A stretch of DNA of 40,912 nt from a virus, in the IMG/VR virus record IMGVR_UViG_3300024319_000578, positions 1-40,912 of that record, one strand, 5' to 3'. How positions within the stretch are numbered: position 1 is the first letter of the stretch; the number at the start of each line of letters is the position of its first letter. The notes under the pieces were generated by a model that had not been told where the DNA came from, made no database searches, and saw only the letters and a program-made list of their open reading frames with translations. A program made the translations under genes and the position numbers. Below, in pieces: positions 7,667-14,675 of the stretch.

Positions 7667-9820
7667 ATGGCAGAAACAATTATCTCTCCAGGTGTATTCA
7701 CAAGAGAAAATGATATTTCATTTATTCAACCAGCCCCTGTAACAGCAGGAGCTGCAATTATCGGACCAGCAGTAAAAGGACCAGTAGAAATCCCAACATT
7801 AGTTACCTCTTATGGTGAGTATGTAAGGAAATTTGGTACTACTTTTGCATCAGGTTCGAACTCTTATGAATTCTTAACTTCTATCGCAGTTAAAAATTAT
7901 TTTCAACAAGGTGGTAACTCAGTATTAGTTTCTAGGGTAGTTACAGGATCATTCGATGCTGCTACATCGACTACTATTAGTAATACTACATCTACTACAG
8001 GTGTTGCAACAGCAACAGGATTCGTAGCTAGTTTTGCTCAAGCAGACGATACTCAACAGTATATTATTCAAGCACCAGACGGGACTGAATACAACTTTAC
8101 AGCAATTGTAGGAGATGTACCTGACGATATTCCATCGGCGAATCAATGGTACTTCTCTCCAGGAGCAGATGCTGACGAAACAGTAGACAACTTAGGAGCA
8201 GCAATCGATGGAGCCAATATAGCAGTAGTACATGGAGATAATGCAACATCAGACACACTACAACTAGACGGTAGAGTAGCAGGAATAGCAGCTAACGGAT
8301 ATATACTTAGAGTAGGAGATGCTGCTGGAAACGATCCTTCAGCAACTGCAGTAATAACTTTAGCAGGAGGTACAGAAACAACATCTACTACTACAAATTC
8401 ATTTATACTATCAACTTTAGGAGAAGGAACAATATATAATAATGCAACTAATGCTAATAATATCCCACAAAATTCTGATAGCTCACTAGTTAATGGTAGT
8501 TCGGATAACGTAAGATGGGAAATAAGTAACGTAAATAGCGATCTTGGAACATTTACATTAAGCATTCGTCAAGGAGATGATAGCTTAAAAAATAAAATTG
8601 TGCTAGAGACATTTAATAATGTATCTCTAGATCCTAATTCTCCTAACTATATAGAAAGTATTATAGGAAACCAACGTCAAGTATTATCAACAGACGGAGA
8701 TGGTTCAAAATACATTTCTACCCAAGGAGAATATGTTAATAAATCTAACTACGTAAGAGTACATTCAGTACCGGCACAAACATTAGATTACTTAGCAAAC
8801 GACGGAGTAACAATCAACACAGATTCACAAGGAGTAAGTTATGCTAGTTCTCTTCCAATAGCACAATCAGGATCATTCTTTGGAGCAACTGGAGGACATT
8901 TTGCTGCAGATAGACAAGCTAAATTTTTCGGTGACATAGACGGAATAGATACACAAGGTTTAACCGCAGATTGTTATTCCGATATTATATCAGTATTGGA
9001 AAACAGCGACGATTATATATTTAATATTATTTCAGCACCAGGATTAGCTTATAACTTAACCGGTCATGCTACAGAAATAGACAGTATTATATCTTTAGCA
9101 GAGACTAGAGGAGATTGTATATCAGTAGTTGATTTAGTAGATTATAGCGTAACAGGTGAAAGTACAGTAACAGGGCAAGCAACAGGACTTAACAGCTCTT
9201 ATGCAGCATCATACTGGCCATGGTTACAAACTAAATCTGCAACAGGAAGAAACGAATGGATTCCAGCATCAGTTGTAATACCAGGAGTATATGCTTTTAC
9301 AGATAATAGTTCAGCACCTTGGTTTGCACCAGCAGGATTAGTAAGAGGAGGAATTACAGGAGTAATACAAGCTCAAAAGAGATTAACAAGAACTCAGAGA
9401 GATACACTATACTCCAAAAAAGTTAACCCAATCGCTTCTTTCCCAGGACAAGGCATTTCAGTATTCGGTCAAAAAACTTTACAAACTAAAGCATCGTCTT
9501 TAGATAGAGTAAATGTAAGAAGATTGTTAATTGAATTGAAAAAGTTTATTGGCGATGAATCAAGAAACTTAGTATTCGAGCAAAACACATTAACAACTAG
9601 AAATAGATTCTTAGCTAGAGTTAATCCTTACTTAGAGTCAGTAGTACAGAGACAAGGTCTTTACGCTTATAGAGTAGTAATGGACGACACAAATAACACT
9701 GCAGACGTAGTAGACAGAAATCAACTTATAGGTCAAATCTTTATTCAACCAGCCAAGACTGCTGAATTCATAGTACTAGACTTTACAATTGAGCCAACAG
9801 GAGCAACTTTTGCAGGATAA
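7667..9820 (+). CDS. Contractile tail sheath protein (T4 gp18-like)
   Basis: The 717-residue protein has the classic sheath start, ISPGVFTRENDISFI, followed by AGAAIIGPAVKGPVEIPTLVTSYGEY. The central part (~residues 100-400) is a variable Thr/Asn/Ala-rich insertion, typical of the exposed domain. The C-terminal third holds the conserved sheath core, with VNPIASFPGQGISVFGQKTL, VNVRRLLIELKKFIG and a closing strand with FIVLDFTIEPTG. The length is close to T4 gp18 (659). Sheath subunits surround the tail tube and contract during infection. The tube gene follows directly, as in T4-like and other myoviruses. The sheath identity is secure. Confidence 0.97.
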   Translation: MAETIISPGVFTRENDISFIQPAPVTAGAAIIGPAVKGPVEIPTLVTSYGEYVRKFGTTFASGSNSYEFLTSIAVKNYFQQGGNSVLVSRVVTGSFDAATSTTISNTTSTTGVATATGFVASFAQADDTQQYIIQAPDGTEYNFTAIVGDVPDDIPSANQWYFSPGADADETVDNLGAAIDGANIAVVHGDNATSDTLQLDGRVAGIAANGYILRVGDAAGNDPSATAVITLAGGTETTSTTTNSFILSTLGEGTIYNNATNANNIPQNSDSSLVNGSSDNVRWEISNVNSDLGTFTLSIRQGDDSLKNKIVLETFNNVSLDPNSPNYIESIIGNQRQVLSTDGDGSKYISTQGEYVNKSNYVRVHSVPAQTLDYLANDGVTINTDSQGVSYASSLPIAQSGSFFGATGGHFAADRQAKFFGDIDGIDTQGLTADCYSDIISVLENSDDYIFNIISAPGLAYNLTGHATEIDSIISLAETRGDCISVVDLVDYSVTGESTVTGQATGLNSSYAASYWPWLQTKSATGRNEWIPASVVIPGVYAFTDNSSAPWFAPAGLVRGGITGVIQAQKRLTRTQRDTLYSKKVNPIASFPGQGISVFGQKTLQTKASSLDRVNVRRLLIELKKFIGDESRNLVFEQNTLTTRNRFLARVNPYLESVVQRQGLYAYRVVMDDTNNTADVVDRNQLIGQIFIQPAKTAEFIVLDFTIEPTGATFAG

Positions 9821-9833
9821 ATTTAAATTAAGA

Positions 9834-9846
9834 TATTTATAATAAA
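9834..9846 (+). promoter_or_regulatory. Candidate late promoter TATTTATAATAAA before the tail tube gene
   Basis: Exact 13-mer, ending 12 bp before the tube ATG. A TTG-N19-GATATTT arrangement (9810-9838) also overlaps it, so the site could alternatively belong to the other promoter class. Confidence 0.4.
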
Positions 9847-9858
9847 CAATAAATAAAA

Positions 9859-10344
9859 ATGGCAGTATTAGATCCAAACGAAATTATGTTTAGAGCCTTC
9901 GAACCGAAGGTACAGAATAGATTCATCATGTATATGGATAACATTCCATCATTCATGGTAAAAACAGTATCAGCTCCTTCGTTTGAAGATGGGGAAGTTG
10001 TACTAGACCACATCAACTCTTATCGTAAGATTAGAGGAAAGAGAATGTGGAATGATATGGATATGACATTATATGATCCAATTACACCTTCCGGAGCTCA
10101 AGCAGTAATGGAGTGGGCAAGACTATCTTACGAATCAGTAACAGGTCGTGCAGGATATTCAGACTTCTACAAAAAAGACTTAACACTTAATGTATTAGGT
10201 CCTGTAGGAGATGTAGTATCGGAATGGATTATTAAAGGTGCATTCATTAAAACTATGTCACAAGGAGACTTTGACTGGTCATCGCCTGAAGCAGTTGAAT
10301 TATCAATGACTGTAGCAATGGATTATTGCGTACTTAATTACTAA
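9859..10344 (+). CDS. Tail tube protein (T4 gp19-like)
   Basis: The 161-residue protein matches T4 gp19 (163 residues) in size and in landmarks. These are FEPKVQNRFIMYMDNIPSFMVKT near the N-terminus, then SYRKIRGKRMWNDMDMTLYDPI, and a C-terminal GDFDWSSPEAVELSMTVAMDYC. It forms the inner rigid tube through which DNA passes. It sits immediately downstream of the sheath gene and is followed by a convincing terminator, so sheath and tube make a high-expression pair. A TATTTATAATAAA element lies just before its start. The identification is firm. Confidence 0.95.
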   Translation: MAVLDPNEIMFRAFEPKVQNRFIMYMDNIPSFMVKTVSAPSFEDGEVVLDHINSYRKIRGKRMWNDMDMTLYDPITPSGAQAVMEWARLSYESVTGRAGYSDFYKKDLTLNVLGPVGDVVSEWIIKGAFIKTMSQGDFDWSSPEAVELSMTVAMDYCVLNY

Positions 10345-10397: not shown

Positions 10398-10420
10398 AAA
10401 AAAGTATTCTTCGTATATTT
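10391..10420 (+). promoter_or_regulatory. Promoter, TTG-N20-TATATTT
   Basis: TTG at 10391-10393 and TATATTT at 10414-10420, spaced by 20 bases, lie 32 bp before the gp26-like gene. The site starts inside the T-rich tail of the preceding terminator, a compact terminator-promoter junction. Confidence 0.55.
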
Positions 10421-10452
10421 ATATTAAGAACTAGTTTTAATTAATAAAATTT

Positions 10453-11196
10453 ATGGAACAAACACAAAAATTCCCAACAGAGATAGTAGACCTACCTTCT
10501 ATGGGTAAACTCTACTCAAAAGAATCCCCATTATCTAGCGGTACAATAGAAATGAAGTATATGACTGCTAAAGAAGAGGATATACTAACTAATCAAAACT
10601 ATATTGAAAAAGGTATAGTAATTGATAAATTGCTTAAAGCTCTTATAGTGGATAAGACTATTAACTATAATGAATTATTAACTGGAGATAAAAATGCACT
10701 GCTGATAGCAGCACGTATTCTAGGTTACGGGAAGGATTACGAATTTAATTATAGCGGTACAGTAGAAAAAGTTGATTTATCTCTATTAGATAATAAAAAA
10801 CTACATCCAGATATCGAAAAAGCAACTGAAAATGCTTTCAACTTTACCTTACCAACTACAGGACACGTCATTACATTTAAACTTCTATCACATGGAGATG
10901 AATCAGCAATAGATCAAGAAGTAAAAGGACTTAAAAAAATTAATAAAGAATCATCAGCTGAATTATCTACTAGACTAAAGCATATGATAACAGCAATTAA
11001 CGGTGAAACAGAGAAAAAAACAGTTAGATCATTCGTTGATAACCAATTCTTAGCAAGAGACTCTAGAGCGTTTAGAAAGTACCTTAGAGACTTTCAACCA
11101 GATGTAGACATGACATTCTACCCAGAGAATGGTCCAGAAGGGGGGATAGATATCCCAATTGGGGTTAATTTTCTTTGGCCTGACGCCGTCGTATAG
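10453..11196 (+). CDS. Baseplate hub / tail assembly chaperone (T4 gp26-like)
   Basis: The 247-residue protein resembles the T4-family baseplate hub assembly protein. It has LPSMGKLYSKESPLSSGTIE at the N-terminus, then MKYMTAKEEDILTNQNYI, ARILGYGKDYEF, and a terminal GVNFLWPDAVV. Such proteins are needed for hub and tail assembly. The position just upstream of the tape-measure gene is where many tailed phages encode a tail-assembly chaperone pair related by ribosomal frameshifting (lambda G/GT type). The stop codon lies inside an overlapping +1-frame ORF that continues with conserved-looking sequence, so a longer fusion product is plausible. The family call is from memory of T4-like proteins. 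Confidence 0.7.
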   Translation: MEQTQKFPTEIVDLPSMGKLYSKESPLSSGTIEMKYMTAKEEDILTNQNYIEKGIVIDKLLKALIVDKTINYNELLTGDKNALLIAARILGYGKDYEFNYSGTVEKVDLSLLDNKKLHPDIEKATENAFNFTLPTTGHVITFKLLSHGDESAIDQEVKGLKKINKESSAELSTRLKHMITAINGETEKKTVRSFVDNQFLARDSRAFRKYLRDFQPDVDMTFYPENGPEGGIDIPIGVNFLWPDAVV

Positions 11197-11425
11197 ATTA
11201 TCCGTATTTACGCAAATTCATGAAATAGTATTCCACGGCAAAGGAGGGTTTGATTACGATACGGTATACAATATGCCTATATGGTTAAGAAACTTTACTT
11301 TTCAGAAAATGCAAGATCATTTCGAAAAAGAAAAAGCCGAATATGATAAAGTAAATAAGAAATCACAGACAATGAAAGGCGGTAAAATGAAGAAACCATC
11401 CTATAGCACAAAGGCTCGTAAATAA
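11159..11425 (+). CDS. Overlapping +1-frame ORF, probable frameshifted extension of the gp26-like protein
   Basis: This ORF overlaps the preceding gene by 38 bases in the +1 frame. As an independent gene its only early start is a TTG with no obvious translation signal. The first ~12 residues merely shadow the upstream gene; the real-looking part starts at YRLSVFTQIHEIVFHGKGGF and continues DTVYNMPIWLRNFTFQ, then a Lys/Glu-rich tail. A TAG at 11147-11149 bounds the open frame, so any shift must occur between 11150 and the upstream stop at 11194. Candidate slip sites are CTT-T at 11173-11176 and GTC-GTA before TAG. The tape-measure gene follows. Alternatively it is a separate small gene. The coding nature is fairly sure; the expression mode is inferred. 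Confidence 0.65.
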   Translation: MGLIFFGLTPSYRLSVFTQIHEIVFHGKGGFDYDTVYNMPIWLRNFTFQKMQDHFEKEKAEYDKVNKKSQTMKGGKMKKPSYSTKARK

Positions 11426-11435
11426 TGCGGGCCTT
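11411..11435 (+). terminator. Hairpin overlapping the stop codon of the +1-frame ORF
   Basis: AAGGCTCG (11411-11418) pairs with CGGGCCTT (11428-11435) with one G-U pair and a 9-base loop that contains the stop codon. The shape matches the hairpin after the tube gene, but no U-run follows. It could be an attenuator, a processing site or a weak terminator. Confidence 0.4.
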
Positions 11436-11438
11436 AAC

Positions 11439-11451
11439 TATTTATAATAAA
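11439..11451 (+). promoter_or_regulatory. Candidate late promoter TATTTATAATAAA before the tape-measure gene
   Basis: Exact 13-mer ending 12 bp before the tape-measure ATG, the same spacing as before the tube gene. There is no TTG at the expected -33 position. Confidence 0.45.
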
Positions 11452-11463
11452 CTCAATATATAA

Positions 11464-14400
11464 ATGGCTAACGGAAATAATGATCCAAATCTAGATCCTA
11501 GTAATTTTGCAAGGAATAGAGAAGAGGTAACTAAGCTAAGTGAACAGTATAACAAGTTTGCTCAAGAAGAAGCTAAGAACAACGCAACTTCTTTAGATAA
11601 CGCCCGTATACTTAATGCAGAACTTAGAGATATACTGGGAGTCAAGCAAAACTTAAATGATCAAGATAAGACTCTTAGAAATTTAGGAAATGAGATTGTT
11701 AAAGCAGCACAACAGAATGTAGTCGAGCTCGGTAATGCAGGAACTATAAACAGAGAAATCTCTAAAGCTAAATCACTTCAAAATAAGCTTATAACAGAGA
11801 TGACCTCAATGACAGGAACTCTCAGCGAACATCAACAGGATATAGCACTACAAATAGCACAAGCGTATAACACTCAACAAGGATTATCTGCAGAGCTAGC
11901 AACGGCAACTACAACCCAAGCAGAACAGTTAAAGATTGTTAGGGAGCTAGAAAGTAAAACTAAGTCTATCGGAGTACTTACAGAAGAAGAATCAACTAGA
12001 CTTAAAGAACAACTAGCTGTTCAGAAAAACATACTCGACGAAGCAAATAACAGAGTTACTCAAGCCAGAGAACTTGAAGAACATGGAGATAAAGTAATTG
12101 CAGACCTTCAAGAGTCACTTGGACTAGAAGGTAAAGTAAATTCTTCAAACGCTAATAAATTAGCTGCTACTATAGCAATGAGCAGAGCGACAGATGAGAA
12201 TTTAGCTACTCTTAGAGAAGAAGAAAAGATACAACGAGCTATAGAAGATAGAATGGGTGTTACCGGTGCGTTAGTAGAAGGTACGGGTGCATTGATGGAA
12301 AGACTAGGTATGAGATCCGGTATATTTCAACAAGCCATGAAAGATGCTTCTGCAAATATGAAAGAAATGGCCGAGGAATCGGAAAGAGTAGATCCAATAA
12401 CCGGTAAAATATCAAAGAACTTTTCTAAAATGGACATAATGATGAAAGGTCTCGGGACTTTAGCATCTGGATTTGGAAAGGCATTATTTGATCCTCTAAG
12501 TATGGGGTTAAAAATTCTATCTGTACTATCGGAAATAAATAAAGCATCAGTTGAATTTACAAGACTAACCGGACAAGCAGCTTATAAAATGTCAGGTGTA
12601 GCTACAGAAACTTCTACAGCAGTAGACCTGATGAAAGTAGCTGCTGAATATACTAAACAAACCGGTATAAACGCTGCTGCTATATTTACTCCTGAACAGT
12701 TAGGTCAAATAGCAGATGCAAAAGACCTACTAGGATTATCAGCTGAACAAGCTGGTAGTTTAGGTACTATGATGAAATTGACCGGACAAAGTGCTGATGA
12801 GTTTCAAGGTAGTGTATTTGATGGAGTACAAGCATTAAATGAATCCGCAGATGCAGCCATCGCACCTACTGTAGCACTTCAAGACGTATTAGGAGCATCT
12901 GACGATATTAAAGCATCACTAGGAGGGAATCCAGAAGCATTAGGTAAGGCAGCAGCAGCAGCTAGAAAACTAGGAATGGACTTAGGTAAAGTAAATGCTA
13001 TAGCAGACGGATTACTAGATTTTGAATCTTCTATTGAAAACGAATTAGAAGCACAGTTACTTACTGGTAAAAATATAAACTTAAATAAAGCTAGAGAATT
13101 AGCATTAAATAACGATTTAGAAGGAGTAGCAAATGAATTAGCTAATCAAGGAGCATCCGCAGCTGAATTCGCAAAAATGAACCGCATACAGCAACAAGCT
13201 ATGGCTAAGGCTATGGGAATGTCTAGAGAAGAATTAGCTAAAATGGTTCTAACAGAAAAAGCTATGGCTGATATGACAGATGAGCAAAAAGCCGCAGCTA
13301 GAGGAGTAACCTTAGAACAATCCAAACAAATGGACATTCAGGAGCGTATGAAAAAAGCAGCTTTCAAGTTAGCAGAAGCATTCGCACCTATACTAGAAGC
13401 TGTAGTTCCTATAGTAGAGTTATTAGGTAAAGCAGCTGGATTAATCTCTCCACTTACTCCTTACCTATTAGGTGCATACGGTGCAATAAAGTTAATGAAT
13501 GGAGGACTAACAAACATAGCTTCAGGATTTGGTTCAATAGTTAAAAATTCAATGAACTTTGTCAAGAATTTAAGTCCTAAGAATTTTAACTTTTCTGCAA
13601 TAGGGAAAGCATTCCAAACAGGCTTTGGAGATAAATCTAAAGTTGTATTCGATGAATCAGCAAAAAGATTTAGAGATTTAGGTTCTGGTAAATTTGTTTC
13701 TGCCGATAAAGCAAAAGAATTAGGAGCTAAGATGCCTGACAGTCTGAAGAAAACAGGAGATACAGTTGGAGACTTAGGAGATAAGACAAAAAATGTAAAG
13801 GCAGATTCCGGAGCAGGCATCAGAGGATTTCTTAAAGGACTAGGGGATGGATTAGCATCTATCGGTAGACAGATAGGCGATGTTATAAAAGGTTCTATAG
13901 CTATAGGAGTAGCAGGATTAGCTTTAGCCGGTTCATTCGCACTTGCTTTAAAAATGGTGAAAGATGTAGATCCGGCACAAATGCTTGCATTTGCAGGATC
14001 GTTAAGTATGTTAGGACTAACCTTAGCAGTATTAGGAAAAGTTGGAGGAAGTATAATCCAAGGAGCTTTAGCAATGGGAATATTAGGAGTTGCTTTAATA
14101 CCCGCAGCATATGGATTTAGCCTATTAAAAGATATTAACCCAGGACAGATGTTTGCATTTGCCGGTGCATTGACTTTATTAGGATTAGCTGCAGCAGGAT
14201 TAGGATTCTTATTTCCTTTCATAGCATCAGGAGCAGGAGCAATTGCACTATTAGGAGCATCATTAATTCCAGCCGCACTAGCATTTAAACTACTCGGGAA
14301 TACTCCTATTGATTCTATTATTTCGAAATTGACTGGATTAGCAGCAATAGCACCTCAACTCCTATTAGTAGGAGCAGGACTAATGGGAATAGCAGCAGGC

Positions 14401-14658
14401 TTAGGAATGATAGCAATTTCAGGAATAGCAGCAATACCGGCTCTAGCCGCCTTATCTGCTTTTGCTTTAGTAGCATCACCATTAGCAGCACTTGGAGGAT
14501 TATTTGGAGATGGTGACGAACAAGAGGATAATTCACTGGCAGAGATATCAACTAAACTAGATACTCTTATATCAGTCGTATCAGCAGGTGGGAATGTATA
14601 CTTAGACGGAGATAAAGTAGGAGAAGCACAAGTATTGGGAACATATAAACTTTCTTAA
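11464..14658 (+). CDS. Tail tape-measure protein
   Basis: The 1,064-residue protein has the tape-measure plan. Long Gln/Glu/Lys/Ala-rich helices with coiled-coil character occupy residues ~1-290. A mixed helical region with many Ala/Gly segments follows. Clustered hydrophobic segments lie in the C-terminal third (about 815-1020, for example GSIAIGVAGLALAGSFALAL and LLLVGAGLMGIAAGLGMIAI). The end has EISTKLDTLISVVSAG and a short VYLDGDKVG strand. Tape-measure proteins set tail length and are ejected ahead of DNA, often inserting in the host membrane. It is the longest complete gene in the tail module and follows the assembly-chaperone locus, as expected. No peptidase or lysozyme motif is seen in it; those activities are on the 973-residue hub protein. 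Confidence 0.85.
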   Translation: MANGNNDPNLDPSNFARNREEVTKLSEQYNKFAQEEAKNNATSLDNARILNAELRDILGVKQNLNDQDKTLRNLGNEIVKAAQQNVVELGNAGTINREISKAKSLQNKLITEMTSMTGTLSEHQQDIALQIAQAYNTQQGLSAELATATTTQAEQLKIVRELESKTKSIGVLTEEESTRLKEQLAVQKNILDEANNRVTQARELEEHGDKVIADLQESLGLEGKVNSSNANKLAATIAMSRATDENLATLREEEKIQRAIEDRMGVTGALVEGTGALMERLGMRSGIFQQAMKDASANMKEMAEESERVDPITGKISKNFSKMDIMMKGLGTLASGFGKALFDPLSMGLKILSVLSEINKASVEFTRLTGQAAYKMSGVATETSTAVDLMKVAAEYTKQTGINAAAIFTPEQLGQIADAKDLLGLSAEQAGSLGTMMKLTGQSADEFQGSVFDGVQALNESADAAIAPTVALQDVLGASDDIKASLGGNPEALGKAAAAARKLGMDLGKVNAIADGLLDFESSIENELEAQLLTGKNINLNKARELALNNDLEGVANELANQGASAAEFAKMNRIQQQAMAKAMGMSREELAKMVLTEKAMADMTDEQKAAARGVTLEQSKQMDIQERMKKAAFKLAEAFAPILEAVVPIVELLGKAAGLISPLTPYLLGAYGAIKLMNGGLTNIASGFGSIVKNSMNFVKNLSPKNFNFSAIGKAFQTGFGDKSKVVFDESAKRFRDLGSGKFVSADKAKELGAKMPDSLKKTGDTVGDLGDKTKNVKADSGAGIRGFLKGLGDGLASIGRQIGDVIKGSIAIGVAGLALAGSFALALKMVKDVDPAQMLAFAGSLSMLGLTLAVLGKVGGSIIQGALAMGILGVALIPAAYGFSLLKDINPGQMFAFAGALTLLGLAAAGLGFLFPFIASGAGAIALLGASLIPAALAFKLLGNTPIDSIISKLTGLAAIAPQLLLVGAGLMGIAAGLGMIAISGIAAIPALAALSAFALVASPLAALGGLFGDGDEQEDNSLAEISTKLDTLISVVSAGGNVYLDGDKVGEAQVLGTYKLS

Positions 14659-14662
14659 CTTC

Positions 14663-14675
14663 TATTTATAATAAA
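14663..14675 (+). promoter_or_regulatory. Candidate late promoter TATTTATAATAAA
   Basis: Third exact copy of the 13-mer, 20 bp before the ATG of the 69-residue gene and just after the tape-measure stop. No TTG occurs at 19-20 bp upstream spacing. Confidence 0.45.

Follow-up and report, generated by a model that had tools for sequence, protein, structure and literature searches.

The window analyzed here, a 40,912-base virus record, covers the tail region of a T4-type myovirus. On its + strand, a tail sheath gene (7667 to 9820; PF04984, E 7e-14) and a tail tube gene (9859 to 10344; phrog_4542, E 3.4e-23) are followed by a gp26-like open reading frame of 247 residues, referred to as ORF1 (10453 to 11196), by an extension of ORF1 in the +1 frame, and by a long ORF of 1,064 residues (11464 to 14658). 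Domain and phrog profile searches returned no family match for the long ORF, which is probably the tape measure gene based on its position, its length, and its synteny with Flavobacterium phage immuto, where the syntenic gene is annotated as the tail tape measure protein. The order of sheath, tube, ORF1, extension, and long ORF is common to immuto, and ORF1 has the tail tube gene ahead of it and the probable tape measure gene behind it, the placement of lambda G/GT-type genes. Four exact + strand copies of TATTTATAWTAA (9834 to 9845, 10416 to 10427, 11439 to 11450, and 14663 to 14674) lie 13 to 25 nt 5' of the ATG of the tail-region genes at 9859, 10453, 11464, and 14696 and are possibly a late promoter; with one mismatch permitted, the motif is not more frequent than expected by chance.

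ORF1 runs from the ATG at 10453 to the TAG at 11194 to 11196 and ends in GVNFLWPDAVV, as the original prediction had read it. It scores 23.5 bits against PF12322 (E 5.2e-5), just below the curated cutoff of 24.5, and matches phrog_150 (baseplate hub) with an E value of 2.8e-8; 26 of 30 aligned relatives match PF12322 at E<=0.01. Structures of ORF1 and the extension were predicted separately. The AF2 model of ORF1 (pLDDT 90) resembles the hub subunit of Bacillus phage SP-15 and T4-like hub assembly proteins in a viral library (E down to 1e-17). No solved structures matching by sequence were found, and a Foldseek search of the PDB with the model gave weak hits to the HK97 chaperone 2ob9 and YqbN 3klu (E about 2 to 3; target TM scores of 0.34 to 0.45). 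Because so many relatives match the profile and the predicted fold is shared with hub proteins of SP-15 and T4-like phages, remote homology of ORF1 to PF12322, the family of T4 gp26 and gp51, is well supported. The model of the extension is helical and of low confidence (pLDDT 61).

The +1 frame, claimed to be open from 11150, is indeed open from there to 11422, with a TAA stop at 11423 to 11425. The extension itself (TAC-C; 11177 to 11425, + strand) comprises 82 codons, beginning with GLTPSYRLSVFTQIHEIVFHGKGG and ending in STKARK. Separate searches with each half recovered about 150 viral loci; the comparison set consisted of 113 nonredundant loci with both parts complete, and a contig in which ORF1 is broken upstream (L138) was set aside. 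The extension lies in the +1 frame in all 113 loci and overlaps ORF1 by 23 to 140 nt, and neither a fused nor a -1 arrangement occurs among them. Past the ORF1 stop, pN/pS is 0.16 in the +1 frame over 276 pairs, compared to 1.6 and 2.1 in the other two readings, with pN below pS in every pair. Substitutions at codon positions 1, 2, and 3 number 2,501, 1,695, and 7,311, the third position being the fastest. Judged by these patterns, the extension clearly codes for protein in the +1 frame under purifying selection. An overlapping second frame that is selected at the protein level and has no conserved start is what characterizes G/GT-type genes. The isolate genomes of immuto and Microcystis phage Mel-JY01 share the layout of the window. 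The public annotation of immuto gives the extension as a 36-residue hypothetical protein (L002:4854-4964) begun at an internal codon, and therefore loses its first half, the most conserved part. A terminator-like hairpin of 10 bp (11411 to 11435, + strand; about -14 kcal/mol by folding) overlaps the end of the extension, as had been noted.

A few codons ahead of the ORF1 stop, the loci share a near-invariant sequence, TTT-YTT-TGG-CCT-GAC in the ORF1 frame; the conservation of a slippery site shortly before the first frame ends is a further G/GT-type trait. The window holds a single match, TTT-CTT-TGG-CCT-GAC (11170 to 11184, + strand), carried by TTTCTTTGGCCTGAC, and the CTT-T at 11173 that had been put forward as a slip candidate falls inside it. 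The first codon is TTT in 112 of the 113 loci; the second is CTT in 45, TTT in 67, and CTA in 1; the remaining three are TGG (113/113), CCT (112/113), and GAC (110/113). For comparison, in the background of ORF1, CTT accounts for 19.5% of Leu, CCT for 44% of Pro, and GAC for 25% of Asp codons. Clustering at 80% identity left 52 clusters, 17 with TTTCTT, 34 with TTTTTT, and 1 with TTCTTT. Not all of this constraint speaks for a signal. CCT and GAC are also set by the +1 reading GGC-CTG-AC and so demonstrate dual coding more than a signal, and since coding for W-P-D in one frame and G-L-T in the other could account for the conservation of TGG-CCT-GAC, that conservation does not independently prove one. 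The restriction of the second codon to CTT or TTT is explained by neither protein, and is what a P-site tRNA moving from YUU to UUU would need; CTT or TTT followed by T, which permits such YUU-U re-pairing, is present in 112 of 113 loci.

An exact scan of viral contigs for the 15-mer, which is independent of the proteins, gave 119 matches, 117 of them at the end of a gp26-like ORF and 113 with a recognizable +1 extension, and reached families more distant than the protein scans returned. The 15-base signature can thus locate this gene end in uncultured phages with almost no false matches. Upstream stops in the +1 frame and the ORF1 stops together confine the shift to -5 to +12 nt around YTT across the loci. 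The originally proposed interval of 11150 to 11196 does contain the site, and the homologues narrow it to about 11168 to 11184. The other proposed slip site, GTC-GTA-TAG at the stop, does not stand as a general site because its codons vary and are absent in many relatives. Two rare variants keep the +1 arrangement, namely, TTT-CTA-TGG (L034:1770-1793) and TTT-CTA-TTC in a huge-phage homologue (L004, near 4741). Neither can slip +1 at the second codon; for both, the slip may instead take place at TTT-C while CUA occupies the A site.

We searched the neighborhood of the slip site for stimulators. In 50-nt windows that began 4, 8, and 12 nt beyond the first base of the slip codon, minimum free energy z-scores were about 0, and a weak RNA structure signal in a window starting 45 nt on (mean z of -1.46) received no support from RNAalifold with 66 sequences; no conserved stimulatory RNA structure emerged at the slip site. 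A GGGG upstream of the slip site is not conserved, and no conserved Shine-Dalgarno (SD)-like element was seen there. The A-site UGG is invariant, yet it is not a rare codon (11 per 1,000). An upstream CCC-AATT-GGG hairpin (11152 to 11165) was rejected as a product of Pro-Ile-Gly codons that is broken in relatives. The terminator-like hairpin lies over 230 nt downstream, too distant for a role in frameshifting.

Phase, selection, the absence of a start, the slip sequence, gene position, and gp26/gp51 homology all agree with the original prediction of a G/GT-type frameshift ahead of the tape measure gene. Sequence comparison leads us to conclude that a programmed +1 ribosomal frameshift very probably makes two tail-assembly chaperones from the ORF1 gene. 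Most ribosomes would terminate at the TAG at 11194 and release the short chaperone, TAC-N, of 247 residues. A minority would pause with the P-site tRNA on CUU (11173 to 11175) while UGG is awaited in the A site. A slip of one base at the putative CUU-U site (11173 to 11176, + strand) would place this tRNA on UUU, after which GGC would be read next and translation would continue to the TAA at 11423. With CTTT taken as one Leu step, the predicted product, TAC-NC (10453 to 11425, + strand), has 323 residues. If the two proteins act as lambda gpG/gpGT do, TAC-N would coat the tape measure protein encoded by the next gene, the C-terminal domain of TAC-NC would recruit tail tube subunits, and both would be absent from the virion. 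What the comparison shows is the constant phase, coding selection in both frames, the conserved slip sequence, the absence of a conserved start, and the family of ORF1; that the ribosome slips, in which direction, and how efficiently, as well as what the two proteins do, we infer. On this reading, a gene that in relatives is annotated as a baseplate hub subunit, with a truncated hypothetical protein beside it, gains both a function and a second product.

The phase of the extension in 113 of 113 loci would equally result from a -2 slip, and the original prediction had left the choice between +1 and -2 open. A -2 frameshift is known from phage Mu (PMC5009743), and the TTTTTTT variants at 67 of the 113 loci would permit -2 re-pairing. 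In the CTT variants, including the window, however, a -2 slip would put the Leu tRNA on UUC, where it pairs poorly, which favors +1; a +1 move lands on UUU as in release factor 2, and the limitation of the Leu/Phe choice to CTT and TTT fits +1 re-pairing on YUU-U. We therefore consider a -2 slip unlikely. The seven consecutive T's of many relatives could also prompt the RNA polymerase rather than the ribosome to slip, yielding a mixed mRNA. The window and 44 other loci, though, read TTTCTTT, with T runs of at most 4, and their arrangement is unchanged; as 45 of 113 loci are without a seven-T run, we regard transcriptional slippage as very improbable.

The extension might instead be a separate small protein, begun inside ORF1 or by reinitiation after the ORF1 stop. 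The sole ATG, GTG, or TTG ahead of the slip in the window's +1 frame is a TTG at 11159, a column that is TTG in 46 of 113 loci, and in Pseudomonas phage Cygsa01 and huge phage LR756511 the stop is overlapped by an ATG that resembles a reinitiation site. The TTG nevertheless arises from Ile-Gly codons of ORF1, and at its column 22 loci have TAG and 23 have TCG. The extension had been said to have no credible start, and none is conserved: 40 of 113 loci are without any ATG, GTG, or TTG in the +1 frame between the upstream stop and the slip, and only 5 of the 73 loci that have an upstream start also have an SD-like sequence. In 34 loci there is no start upstream or within 15 codons past the slip, yet conserved residues begin immediately. 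A separate protein would also leave CTT/TTT at the slip codon unexplained. Own initiation is therefore quite improbable, owing to the 40 loci without an upstream start and the 45 in which the TTG column is a stop or TCG. That the halves are one broken gene, split by a sequencing error or decay, has nothing in its favor except the split itself; the split is common to 113 independent loci and to isolate genomes, which refutes the sequencing indel named as a caveat in the original prediction, and both halves are under selection, so that the probability of a broken gene is negligible. A +1 ribosomal slip remains the preferred reading.

Frameshifting is reportedly conserved in several T4-like groups, and the 2022 abstract of Vladimirov et al. 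is said to name genes 26 and 51. In the family tree, a -1/T4 clade separates from a clade holding the +1 members, each with support of 100/100. Behind a T-TTT-TTC, the relatives in S-RIM8, Aeromonas phage 65.2, and a Nitratidesulfovibrio phage possess a comparable -1-frame tail, and 75 of 76 further cyanophage-like loci have a matching -1 extension with T-TTT-TTC; a sister clade of cyanophages and others thus apparently extends gp26 at the same place by a -1 slip on T-TTT-TTC. The cyanophage-like gp26 genes with this ending and a -1 extension are L282, L283, L284, and L300 to L379. The -1 extension is annotated in S-RIM8 as a 45-residue baseplate hub assembly catalyst and is unannotated in Aeromonas phage 65.2. 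The original prediction asked whether homologues are fused in one frame; this is so in 0 of 113 loci, and T4 gp51, which like gp26 belongs to PF12322, has its extra tail in frame. By hhalign, the gp51 tail matches the -1 extensions (probability 97.7, E 1.6e-12), these match the window extension (probability 84, E 7e-6), and a direct comparison of the gp51 tail with the window extension gives a weak match (probability 47, E 2e-4). The extension is also in +1 in SP-15, Listeria LIS04, Streptococcus GXN1, and Rhodothermus RM378, the last of which retains TTT-TTT-TGG. In a mixed alignment of distant members, no segment was conserved strongly enough for a profile scan. In Cygsa01 (L285, around 3307) and LR756511 (L299, around 3269), a TAATG places an ATG over the gp26 stop before the extension, which suggests a third layout based on reinitiation.

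The slip codon has a counterpart in release factor 2 (prfB), whose CUU-UGA-C uses the same CUU-U P-site codon and moves a Leu tRNA to UUU. The release factor 2 frameshift waits at a stop codon and has an SD-like element upstream, whereas the present site has UGG in the A site and showed no conserved SD-like element. Our most tentative proposal, which we regard as possible but doubtful, is that UUU-YUU-UGG-CCU-GAC is an undescribed stand-alone +1 cassette that functions at a sense codon and dispenses with a stop codon, an SD-like element, and RNA structure, that part of GGCCUGAC is signal and code at once, and that the chaperone frameshift of this family switched direction, between -1 and +1, at a single homologous T-rich site. 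The Kyanoviridae/T4-like -1 genes (S-RIM8 and Aeromonas phage 65.2) share the family, the position at the end of gp26, a related extension, and a T-rich slip site but use the -1 frame and T-TTT-TTC and form a separate, well-supported clade. As in lambda gpG/gpGT, the gene precedes the tape measure gene, and a short and a C-terminally extended form would arise by frameshifting near the end of the first frame; no sequence similarity to gpG/gpGT was detected, and the lambda shift is -1, whereas here it would occur at a Trp sense codon in the +1 (or -2) direction, within another conserved sequence. T4 shares PF12322 and the pairing of a short form, gp26, with a form bearing an extra C-terminal tail, gp51, but does so with two separate genes instead of one gene and a frameshift. 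Vladimirov, Gautam and Davidson (2022, Virology 566:9-15) are cited for identifying gp26 and gp51 as the tail-assembly chaperones of the T4-like group, and the citing papers describe one short and one longer fused copy in some T4-like phages and poly-T signals in T4-like TAC-N genes (PMC10885494, PMC12846349). Homologous chaperone genes would thus obtain their long product by a +1 slip, by a -1 slip, or, in T4, from a second gene, a natural comparison through which it can be tested directly how frameshift direction evolved.
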